From: an uncultured Acidobacteriota bacterium
Lineage (GTDB): Bacteria; Acidobacteriota; Thermoanaerobaculia; Gp7-AA8
Length of the DNA: 64,000 nt
Reading direction: 5' to 3'
Assembly: GCA_937870635.1 (NCBI GenBank)
Contig: CALMZP010000019.1
Location: forward strand, 1 to 64,000
The notes under the pieces were generated by a model, which ran no database searches, was not told the origin of the DNA, and saw nothing but the letters and a program-made list of their open reading frames with translations. Positions within the stretch are counted from its first letter, which is position 1; every line of letters begins with the position of its first letter. Positions 19,004-57,117 of this stretch are shown piece by piece. A program made the position numbers and the translations under genes.

Positions 19004-19026
19004 CAGACCGCCGGCCACCGCCCATT

Positions 19027-19245
19027 CCCCCGTGACGCCACCCGCCCTCGCCACCGTGACCCCATCCACCCTCGCCACCGTGACGCCATCCGCCGCCCAC
19101 CCGTGACGCCGCCTTCCCCCGCCCGTGAGTACGACGACACGCCCGTGCAGCGTAGGTCTGAGGGCTCCGCTTTCACGGTGGTGTGGGCGGAGGCGTGACG
19201 GTGGAAAGGGCGGGCGGCGTCACGGTTGGGCGGGCGGGCGGCGCG
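19027..19245. repeat. 24-bp tandem repeats in inverted arms (GGCGTCACGG family), copy A
   Basis: On the plus strand CGTGACGCC-type units start near 19031, 19055, 19079 and 19102, a 23-24 bp period. After about 40 bp of other sequence, units of opposite orientation (TCACGG/GCGTGACGG/GCGTCACGG) run from about 19171 to 19245, into the last codons of the thioesterase gene. Read through, the repeat gives an artificial WRHGGEGG octapeptide frame, which is why it looks like an ORF. Confidence 0.8.
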
Positions 19246-45310: not shown

Positions 45311-45474
45311 TCCGCCCACCCCTTCCACCGTGACGCCGCCTACCCACCGCCCGTAAAAGCGAAGACAACGCGGACAACCCACACACGGGTGGTCGGGCGG
45401 TCGGCGTCACGGGGGGGGAAGGCAGGCGTCACGGTGGCGCGGGCGGGTGGCCTCACGGGCGGCAAGGGTGGGCG
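45311..45474. repeat. 24-bp repeats in inverted arms (GGCGTCACGG family), copy B
   Basis: Left part 45311-45353 carries the CCACCGTGACGCC orientation. After about 35 bp, the right part 45389-45474 carries GGCGTCACGG units at 45403, 45425 and 45449 (22- and 24-bp steps). It lies directly upstream of polA on the minus strand. Confidence 0.75.
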
Positions 45475-52130: not shown

Positions 52131-52209
52131 GGATTTTGGATTTTGGATTTTGGATTCAACTTCGAATCGGTTTTAAAAATCCAAAATCCAAAATCCAAAA
52201 TCCAAAATC
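52131..52209. repeat. Inverted heptamer repeat, unit ATTTTGG
   Basis: Left arm 52131-52156, right arm 52178-52209 in reverse complement, about 21-nt loop. Same heptamer as at 27.4, 31.2 and 60.1 kb. Tandem plus-strand gap between the TonB-like gene and nfo. Confidence 0.9.
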
Positions 52210-53191: not shown

Positions 53192-54430
<1,239 letters not shown>

Positions 54431-54463: not shown

Positions 54464-54512
54464 AACGATGAACGATGAATGAACGATGAGGAAGTTGCAT
54501 CGATCATCGTTC
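54464..54512. repeat. Partial inverted heptamer repeat, unit GAACGAT
   Basis: Left arm 54464-54491 with three GAACGAT-like units, one shortened (AACGATGAAT). Short right arm ATCATCGTTC at 54503-54512. A preceding GGGACG-GTAT-CGTCCC hairpin (54439-54454) just after icd could be a weak terminator. Same unit as the element at 3.0 kb. It runs straight into copy C of the 24-bp repeats. Confidence 0.7.
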
Positions 54513-54527
54513 GGGTGGCGGTCGGTA

Positions 54528-54624
54528 GGCGTAACGGGCGGCGGGGAGGTCGGCGTCACGGATGGTCGGGCGGGCGGCGTCACGGTGGCGGGGGCGGTTG
54601 GCGTCACGGATGGAAAGGGTGGGC
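54528..54624. repeat. 24-bp tandem repeat (GGCGTCACGG family), copy C
   Basis: Four units begin at 54528 (GGCGTAACGG), 54552, 54576 and 54600 (GGCGTCACGG), an exact 24-bp period, all in one orientation. The last unit merges into the 31-bp direct repeat at 54617. Confidence 0.85.
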
Positions 54625-54647
54625 GGCCCAGACCAGGAACCACGGTT
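54617..54647 (+). repeat. 31-bp direct repeat, left copy
   Basis: Identical over 31 bases to 56225-56255, which is the 3' end of the membrane-protein gene on the other strand. Here it is an orphan, encoding (minus strand) a PWFLVWAAHPF-like tail with no gene attached. It marks the left junction of the 54.6-56.2 kb island. Confidence 0.85.
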
Positions 54648-55279
54648 ACCCACGATCCATACCTCAAGGAGAACCCGACCGAACGAGCATGGTTCCTCAG
54701 AACGCTCAGTTCGAACCACACCGTGAGCGACCGAAACCTCCACGTCGCATTGCGCAATGGTGTGGTGTTTGTCGTCGGCGGTACCCAGAAACCTGGTGCC
54801 GATAACCTCGATTACCGGTGGGATCGCGGCGTGGTGATTCAGGGAATCCGGGAAGGATCAAACAGCGGATCGTGCGTAACCGCATGGGCTCCCGCCGCGC
54901 CAATCTGGGTCGCGACGCATAGGGATGCCGCTGGGGCGATATCTACAACTGGATACCGGTCGAACGTCGGCACGTCGTTTTCTGCTCCGCTCGTAGCCGG
55001 CATCGCAGCCCGTTGGATGCATGAGCGGCACGACGCCGGTTACGCACGCCCGTGGTACACAGACGCCTACGATGCTCTGCTAGCGGCGAATACTGCGGCT
55101 CCGGTTCCTCAAAATACGGCAACGACCGGGTACCCCGTCTGCGTAATCTACGGCACCGGAAACTGGCGCGAACCGTACAGTTGGGAATTGGCCGATGGAA
55201 CGTGCTACTACGGAGATCGGTGGTACTCCCTCCAAGGCGCAAGTGCTAGCACCTCGAAGATCATCCACTGGAGCCGGAC

Positions 55280-56104
55280 ATGCCCGTGACGAACCGCCGT
55301 GTTCCAGTCGCTACGTCTCTCCTTACGTTAATGCTTGCCTTTCTCGTCGGCCCGCCTGCGCCCGCCGCGGATATCGATGGCGACGGTTACGAGCGGATCC
55401 TCATACCACTCGCGATCAACGGTCAAACCACGCCGGGTGCTTTCGGCACACAATGGACGGGCCGGCTTTGGCTGTATAACGCGGCACCGCGCGCGGTCGG
55501 TATTGCCGGTCCGCGCTGCCACTCACCCGGATGTGGGATCTACGAGGCTGGTCATATGGGCATTCTGGGTCATGGTCCTACGACTTCCCAACCGGAAGTC
55601 GGGCTAGTGCTGAGGCCCAGGAGCGACGACGCGCCGCACCTGACGTTCTCCAGCCGGTTGTGGGAGACCACCCGTATGGGACAGCCCCGTGGCATCGATC
55701 TGCCGATCGTGCGAGAAGGAAACTTCTTTGCGGGCCCGGTTGCATTTCTCGGCGTGCCAGCCGACTCAGGTGTTCGGGTCGCGTTACGTGTGTACAACCC
55801 GTGGGTCGAGCCGCGATCTTCGGTGGCGGGTGCGGACCGCGTCGCAGTCGAGTTCCTCGACGCGAACGGCGTCGCGCTCGCAACCACCGAGCTGACGTTG
55901 ACCGTTCCTGGCAATCCGGCCGAGCGTCCCGACTATCCAGGATTTGCGGCCATTCACGATGCCCGTGCAGCTTTTCCCCAGCTTGCTGGAACGGACGTTC
56001 TGCACATCCGCGTGCGACCCGTCGTGCCGGGCGCACAGTACTACGCGATGGTTTCGGTCACTGACAACGAGACGCAGACGGTGGCCATCGTTACGGCTCA
56101 GTGA
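55280..56104 (+). CDS. Secreted protein of unknown function
   Basis: 274 residues with signal peptide (VPVATSLLTLMLAFLVGPPAPAAD, landmark LLTLMLAFLVGPP). The mature protein looks all-beta (GRLWLYNAAPRAVGIAG, VRVALRVYNPWVEP, VAVEFLDANGVALATTELTLTVPG, HIRVRPVVPGAQYYAMVSVTDNETQTVAIVT). The last block resembles surface-protein beta-sandwich repeats. It overlaps the protease fragment by 10 nt, suggesting they moved as one unit. Followed by a strong terminator. Confidence 0.78.
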   Translation: MPVTNRRVPVATSLLTLMLAFLVGPPAPAADIDGDGYERILIPLAINGQTTPGAFGTQWTGRLWLYNAAPRAVGIAGPRCHSPGCGIYEAGHMGILGHGPTTSQPEVGLVLRPRSDDAPHLTFSSRLWETTRMGQPRGIDLPIVREGNFFAGPVAFLGVPADSGVRVALRVYNPWVEPRSSVAGADRVAVEFLDANGVALATTELTLTVPGNPAERPDYPGFAAIHDARAAFPQLAGTDVLHIRVRPVVPGAQYYAMVSVTDNETQTVAIVTAQ

Positions 56105-56112
56105 AGAGTTCA

Positions 56113-56139
56113 GGGGCGGGCTCCCACCCGCCCCTTTTT
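56113..56139 (+). terminator. Rho-independent terminator
   Basis: Stem GGGGCGGG (56113-56120) with CCCGCCCC (56127-56134), six-base loop, then TTTTT (56135-56139). It ends the island transcript nine bases after the secreted-protein stop. Confidence 0.9.
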
Positions 56140-56169
56140 CCGGGGATCGGGCGCCGCGTGTGTCGCGGG

Positions 56170-56255
56170 CGGAGGCAGCCGCCGTCACGGCGGACAGGGC
56201 GGGGCGGCGTCTCACGCTCGGAACGGGTGGGCGGCCCAGACCAGGAACCACGGTT
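56170..56255. repeat. 24-bp repeat copy D and right copy of the 31-bp direct repeat
   Basis: GCCGTCACGG at 56181 and GGCGTCTCACG at 56206 are two diverged units of the 24-bp family. 56225-56255 repeats 54617-54647 exactly. This copy codes for the C-terminal residues of the following minus-strand gene. Confidence 0.7.
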
Positions 56256-57117
56256 CGCGCCTGCCGAAGCGCGTGGCGAGTGCGACGCCGATTCCAAAGA
56301 TCGACGCGGTGCTCCAGATCACGGTGCCCACGACGGGGATCATCCGCAGCGCGCCGAGGATCAGGAGGCCGACGACGACCATGGCGAGGTCGCCGCGAAG
56401 CCACCGGCGTGAGGCCAGCTGCTCGCGCGTCTTCGAGCCGGCAACCAGCGTTCCCACCGCGTGGAAAACCGCGACCATGCCGTAAGTCTTCGTGAGGATG
56501 CCGAACACGCCGAGGCCGACGAGCAGCGGAACGCCAACGAGGTACGGCACGAGGTAGCTGAAGAGGATCGCGGTGAGAACGAAGCTCGTCACCGCGACGA
56601 GGCCGAGCGCAAAGCAGTAGAGCGCACTGGCACGGATCTCGACCGACGATGATCGGATTTCGCGCGCGCCGATCAGAGTCAGCACGACCGCGACGATGAG
56701 CCAGGCTACGAGCAGGGCGAGGATCACGGCGCCGCGCGTGAGCGAAGCGGCCGCACCTTCGAGCGTGGACAGCGGGTAGATACGCCCCCCCACCCGATTC
56801 TCGGCGCCGGCTACCTTTCCGCCGCTATGGATCAGATCTCCGCTGACGCGGCCCGCGCCGGTGAAGAACACGCTGCCGCCGATGACGACGAGGTCACCGT
56901 CGATGACGTTGCTCACATGCGCGGAGCCGCCGACGACCTGGACGCTGCCGTGAACGGGCTCGCTGATCACCGCGTCGCGCCCGAAGGCGTAGTGATCGCC
57001 GCGCGAAGGTCGTGCGGCGCCCTTTTCGTCACCGACCGCGGCCACGGGAGTGACGACGACGATCAGGCTCATCACCGCCGCCAGGACGACCGCGGTCATC
57101 ACGAAGCGCTTAAACAT
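56212..57117 (-). CDS. Membrane protein with bactofilin/polymer-forming-like N-terminal domain
   Basis: 301 residues. Signal or first helix (about 5-28), then a short right-handed beta-helix-like stretch (GSVQVVGGSAHVSNVIDGDLVVIGGSVFF landmarks; GRVSGDLIHSGGKV) like bactofilin turns, followed by four or five membrane helices (about 130-285). Last gene of the sigma/anti-sigma unit, overlapping the anti-sigma gene by 8 nt. Role unknown; possibly an envelope-stress output of the ECF system. Confidence 0.8.
   Translation of the reverse strand: MFKRFVMTAVVLAAVMSLIVVVTPVAAVGDEKGAARPSRGDHYAFGRDAVISEPVHGSVQVVGGSAHVSNVIDGDLVVIGGSVFFTGAGRVSGDLIHSGGKVAGAENRVGGRIYPLSTLEGAAASLTRGAVILALLVAWLIVAVVLTLIGAREIRSSSVEIRASALYCFALGLVAVTSFVLTAILFSYLVPYLVGVPLLVGLGVFGILTKTYGMVAVFHAVGTLVAGSKTREQLASRRWLRGDLAMVVVGLLILGALRMIPVVGTVIWSTASIFGIGVALATRFGRREPWFLVWAAHPFRA

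Follow-up and report, generated by a model that had tools for sequence, protein, structure and literature searches.

The locus described here raises the question of how ~1.6 kb of DNA, framed by two copies of a 31-bp sequence and beginning inside a protease gene, came to lie, in an Acidobacteriota genome, between the housekeeping genes for isocitrate dehydrogenase (IDH) and a membrane protein. The window referred to below is the whole stretch of DNA analyzed (64,000 nucleotides). The island (~1.6 kb) contains a 5'-truncated S8 protease, an intact gene for a secreted protein (hereafter P2), a terminator and a degenerate repeat arm, and its features are arranged as follows:

53192-54430, plus strand: IDH gene, the left neighbor (Pfam Iso_dh, E-value 7.5e-91), convergent with the membrane gene in relatives
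54505-54628, plus strand: arm 1, a dispersed intergenic repeat (right-hand arm only) made of runs of ~24-nt GGCGTCACGG units
54617-54647, plus strand: left repeat copy, 10 bp of arm end and 21 bp of copied membrane-gene tail
54648-55289, plus strand: 5'-truncated S8 protease remnant (Pfam Peptidase_S8 and alignment with full-length homologues)
55280-56104, plus strand: P2, intact secreted protein gene of 274 aa, its start codon overlapping the protease stop
56112-56140, plus strand: likely intrinsic terminator, hairpin and T-run (9-bp stem, -20.2 kcal/mol, z -2.3)
56150-56234, plus strand: arm 2, a degenerate repeat arm (matched at 56183-56211 by the unit profile, E 0.18 over 64 kb)
56225-56255, plus strand: right repeat copy, in place within the membrane gene
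56212-57117, minus strand: membrane-protein gene of 301 aa, the native right neighbor, which stands beside an ECF sigma factor gene in close relatives

The direct repeat and the repeat arms

Positions 54617-54647 and 56225-56255 are identical, exactly as the preliminary description of this DNA had reported, and form the sole exact repeat of at least 31 nt within the 64-kb window, where chance, given the base composition, would yield ~4e-9 such repeats. Further exact direct repeats of at least 26 nt are located in the window at 1792/20308 and 12360/33671. A search of the whole 4.5-Mb genome with up to three mismatches allowed returned two copies of the 31-mer only, which rules out a dispersed family of the whole 31-mer. 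The repeat is instead a composite. Its first 10 bp (GGGTGGGCGG) are the common outer end of a family of repeat arms, and the remaining 21 bp (CCCAGACCAGGAACCACGGTT) form the 3' end of the native membrane-gene coding sequence, aligning with the membrane-gene tails of relatives, which carry CCAGGCCAGGAACCACGGCTC or close variants at the same place. The right copy had already been recognized as the coding 3' end of a membrane-protein gene, and this is borne out by the 301-aa gene on the minus strand. The idea of "repeat-bearing gene tails", on the other hand, has to be given up, since the 31-mer occurs only twice and combines 10 bp of intergenic repeat with 21 bp of native tail duplicated by the event.

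Concerning the arms, the unit profile detects arm 1 with E-values of 3e-7 to 5e-3, and in a genome search with this region the repeat, at 54511-54628, has matches at ~45 further places, often as outward-facing inverted pairs. Its occurrences in the window are at 19018-19243, 45313-45458 and 54505-54628, and some copies in the genome abut or replace gene ends. A single weak match was obtained from 19 other genomes; by sequence comparison, the arm repeat is lineage-specific. No relevant account of such repeats in Acidobacteria turned up in the literature searched, and RNA folding of the arms was no better than that of shuffled sequences. REP/BIME-like elements are dispersed palindromic intergenic repeats, present in many copies and often as inverted pairs. 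The arm repeat is similar to them in its many intergenic copies and frequent inverted pairing, but differs in that the arms are variable runs of ~24-nt units and, one weak match aside, belong to this genome only among the 20 searched. Another inverted repeat with dispersed copies (GGATTTTGGATTTTGGATT, which reads ILDFGF) is present in the window at 52131-52209 and from 31206 onward.

Between the terminator and the right repeat copy lie 84 bp of arm-like sequence. Similarity between arm 1 and arm 2 is weak, as 44 of 1000 shuffles reach the same score.

Content of the island

An open frame (54486-55289) starts in repeat-arm sequence, passes through the left 31-bp copy and enters the subtilase fragment. 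The left copy ends exactly where the protease sequence starts (junction 54647/54648). The match of the remnant to Peptidase_S8 (PF00082) covers profile positions 224-259 with an E-value of 4e-4 and, at 20.1 bits, falls just below the curated cut-off of 21.8. The Ser block of the S8 family (GTSxSAP) is present as GTSFSAP, and the blocks of the catalytic Asp and His, which homologues carry at approximately residues 156-202 and 211-270, are absent upstream of the junction. These data agree with the preliminary description, which saw the left copy fused to a subtilisin-like gene that had lost its Asp and His blocks and took the junction for a scar; the left junction does lie inside the protease gene.

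The protein encoded by P2 matched no Pfam or NCBIfam family, and folding it alone from its single sequence gave a poor model (pLDDT 47). The hairpin and T-run at 56112-56140 was not listed by a consensus terminator scan.

The island had also been claimed to be AT-richer than its surroundings, which is not clearly the case: with a GC content of 0.622 it lies at the 22nd percentile, the window as a whole having 0.634. Of the measurements of GC and codon bias proposed there, GC proved normal; GC3 is lower in both genes of the island (0.66 and 0.68) than in the neighbors (0.82-0.85). However, low GC3 is common to the other S8/P2 copies of this genome (0.60-0.73). A foreign origin argued from composition was rejected, GC being normal and low GC3 a trait of the family.

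The empty site in relatives

Relatives share the gene order endonuclease IV-like, IDH, membrane gene, ECF sigma factor. In seven of them neither an S8 protease nor P2 stands between IDH and the membrane gene, which are convergent, and on this comparison the island is therefore an insertion in this lineage. This supports the earlier suggestion that it was brought in. The gap between the two genes measures 26, 68, 167, 176 and 190 nt in five of the seven, and the other two (G001 and G007) have different genes there, one of them resembling, by eye, an alkylation-repair HEAT-like protein. Gap contents vary across the loci compared (L024, L031, L020, L023), from these other genes in G001 and G007 to a long palindrome in G015 and tandem hairpins in G010. 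The gap looks like a tolerated landing site.

The end of the membrane gene is informative as well. Here the protein ends REPWFLVWAAHPFRA*, its last codons (AAHPFRA) deriving from the repeat arm, and in most close relatives it ends GRREPWFLAWRAAEA or similarly (e.g., REPWFLAWRAAEA), with RAAEA-type codons where this genome has the arm. Since the tails of relatives differ at these last codons, the arm would already have abutted the membrane gene, replacing its last codons, and the event would have copied that junction.

The protease-P2 unit and its truncated copies

Protease and P2 form a conserved two-gene unit, found in five other genomes (G018, G002, G012, G013, and G009) and, in this genome, on contigs C81 and C64. 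The preliminary description held that the island carries a fragment of such a unit, and the complete units in relatives and elsewhere in this genome confirm it. P2 has 11 matches in this genome, and the three closest copies, on C19 (the window), C158 and C53, form one clade (support 100/98). Each of these three lies downstream of a protease stump, of ~212, ~18, and ~85 residues, respectively. A possible fourth case of a lost protease with P2 kept was seen on contig C45 of G013. Because dN/dS is ~0.17 between the C19 and C158 copies, with dS near saturation, P2 has evolved under constraint, part of which perhaps predates the truncations. The repeated keeping of P2 where the protease is cut off is a more curious feature than the insertion itself.

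At C158 (L066, 6100-7150) the P2 paralogue with its 18-residue stump adjoins a DUF4440 fragment without both ends. This DUF4440 gene (named by eye) is intact in G009, and at C158 it is clipped at its 5' end beside the stump; the GGATTTTGGATTTTGGATT repeat also occurs there (L066, 7132-7207), fused to the cut end of the gene. At C53 (L120, 2834-3879) a C-terminal protease stump directly follows the stop of a DAHP synthase gene whose last codons differ (an altered gene end), and it is followed by an apparently frameshifted P2.

We also looked for a donor. The preliminary description had advised searching for a full-length protease beside a gene ending PWFLVWAAHPF, and none came to light: in this genome and 60 relatives the closest full-length proteases reach 38-48% identity, thus no close version, and none of them adjoins the membrane gene. 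No donor above 66% DNA identity was found in this genome, no P2 closer than the known copies in 149 genomes of the class, and no relative of the protease fragment in a scan of GTDB contigs. The C158 copy was rejected as donor because of its 66% DNA identity and its shorter protease stump.

Origin of the island

The reading that we consider probable is that an inserted piece was joined by homology at one end and illegitimately at the other, 31 bp of the target being copied a second time in the process. In the ancestor, IDH and the membrane gene would have been convergent, and a repeat arm would have lain directly against the membrane gene, whose last codons it had by then replaced. The incoming piece would have come from a protease-P2 unit; it would have been broken off within the protease gene and have finished in an arm belonging to this family of repeats. 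Its right end would have joined by homology, either between the two arms or, had the donor possessed this junction beforehand, via the tail of the target. Its left end would have been attached by an illegitimate join 21 bp into the membrane-gene tail, thereby leaving 31 bp of the target present twice. The membrane gene would thus be kept, and a dead protease stump and an intact P2 delivered. Either a linear fragment or a template switch may have been the route, as may a circle integrating by a single crossover; as to the step supplying the homology, we infer it, and likewise a donor that could be another cell, another place in the genome or an excised circle. Besides the empty site, the composite repeat and the protease-P2 units found elsewhere, two observations speak for this reading: the two closest P2 paralogues (C158 and C53) also follow truncated protease stumps at altered gene ends, and an arm-like sequence is found just left of the right repeat copy. 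Against it speak the weakness of that arm by sequence alone (E 0.18), the target deletion usual in comparable events (see below) and the search for a donor, which yielded no parent junctions for comparison. The recombination model of the preliminary description was broadly right as recombination and insertion, while its gene-tail family and its argument from composition fail.

The same product could have arisen in two steps: first a full protease-P2 unit would have entered, duplicating more of the membrane-gene tail, and then a deletion would have extended from inside the left tail copy into the protease. The outcome would look identical, and loss of the protease with P2 kept at C158, C53 and apparently C45 of G013 makes such decay after insertion plausible. 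Nevertheless, two events are needed, and the sequence shows no remainder of a longer tail copy on the left: the left copy stops where the protease begins. We hold this course to be unlikely.

The site could also be an artefact of assembly or strain mixture, in which the true site is empty and the island, located elsewhere or on a free circle, was threaded in via the shared 31-mer. The genome is in 171 contigs with ~3% contamination, and 31 nt is near the smallest k of some assemblers. Against this, the island has a 21-bp membrane tail joined to the protease, a join that no collapse can invent and that must stem from a real molecule or from a chimeric read, and the contig runs on normally on both sides with conserved gene order. 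An artefact is therefore, in our judgment, decidedly improbable.

Retro-insertion, in which a cDNA truncated at its 5' end would have been made from the protease-P2 transcript and inserted with duplication of 31 bp at the target site, would fit the ragged 5' ends and the kept 3' gene in three paralogues and the direct repeat around one of them. However, no match to reverse transcriptase (PF00078) exists in this genome (~98.7% complete), for which reason it was rejected. The 84 bp of arm-like sequence also separate the terminator from the right repeat, and no direct repeat flanks the C53 copy and none that is convincing the C158 copy; we give this origin hardly any credence. An integrative element or a transposon that duplicated 31 bp of its target site is just as remote and was likewise rejected, for although the insert is flanked by direct repeats, none of the island ORFs visibly resembles a transposase or integrase gene, no inverted repeats pair the island ends, P2 is absent from plasmid and phage collections, and no copies with the same ends exist elsewhere in this genome.

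Comparison with known systems

The locus is an insertion scar that can be read cleanly, with an empty site in relatives, a composite repeat marking both joins and an arm of a high-copy repeat where they fell. This suggests that, in this lineage, gene pieces are helped to land at gene ends by dispersed repeat arms.

Concerning the retention of P2, arrays of orphan immunity genes left by displaced T6SS effectors have been reported in Vibrio cholerae, and a mechanism akin to homology-facilitated illegitimate recombination (HFIR) was proposed by the authors (PMC5361080). As in those arrays, the upstream gene of a pair is lost here and the downstream partner kept, so that the putative retention of P2 may be likened to the orphan immunity genes kept in other bacteria. 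Unlike them, the P2 copies stand at separate places and not in one array behind a new module, and the S8 protease and P2 are not known as an effector/immunity pair, which makes the comparison an analogy only. It would be quite speculative to regard protease and P2 as an antagonistic or dependent pair (e.g., a secreted protease with an inhibitor or binding partner), whose orphan P2 is spread and retained by repeated insertions cut inside the protease. Still, repeated protease loss with a conserved P2 offers a testable lead on an uncharacterized secreted family of Thermoanaerobaculia.

The closest likeness in mechanism is to HFIR, which has been described in S. pneumoniae, A. baylyi, P. stutzeri, and E. 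coli and inserts ~1 kb, usually with deletion of target DNA; single-crossover products with duplications of 109-950 bp were reported in the same study (PMC3240628). Insertion of a circle by a single crossover, with loss of an end, would likewise leave an insert flanked by direct repeats of the target, although the shared segment here is only 31 bp and the circle hypothetical. With HFIR the locus shares an insert of ~1 kb scale and, given the empty convergent site in relatives, an insert absent from the ancestral site. The putative homology on one side, suggested by the weak arm match, and an illegitimate join on the other, which in HFIR has 3-10 bp of microhomology, would be further points of likeness. 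It differs at the illegitimate end, where HFIR normally deletes target DNA and here 31 bp are duplicated. Because of this duplication it is not a standard HFIR product, and the event would rather have worked like HFIR-type events. The event itself is real and of a familiar kind.
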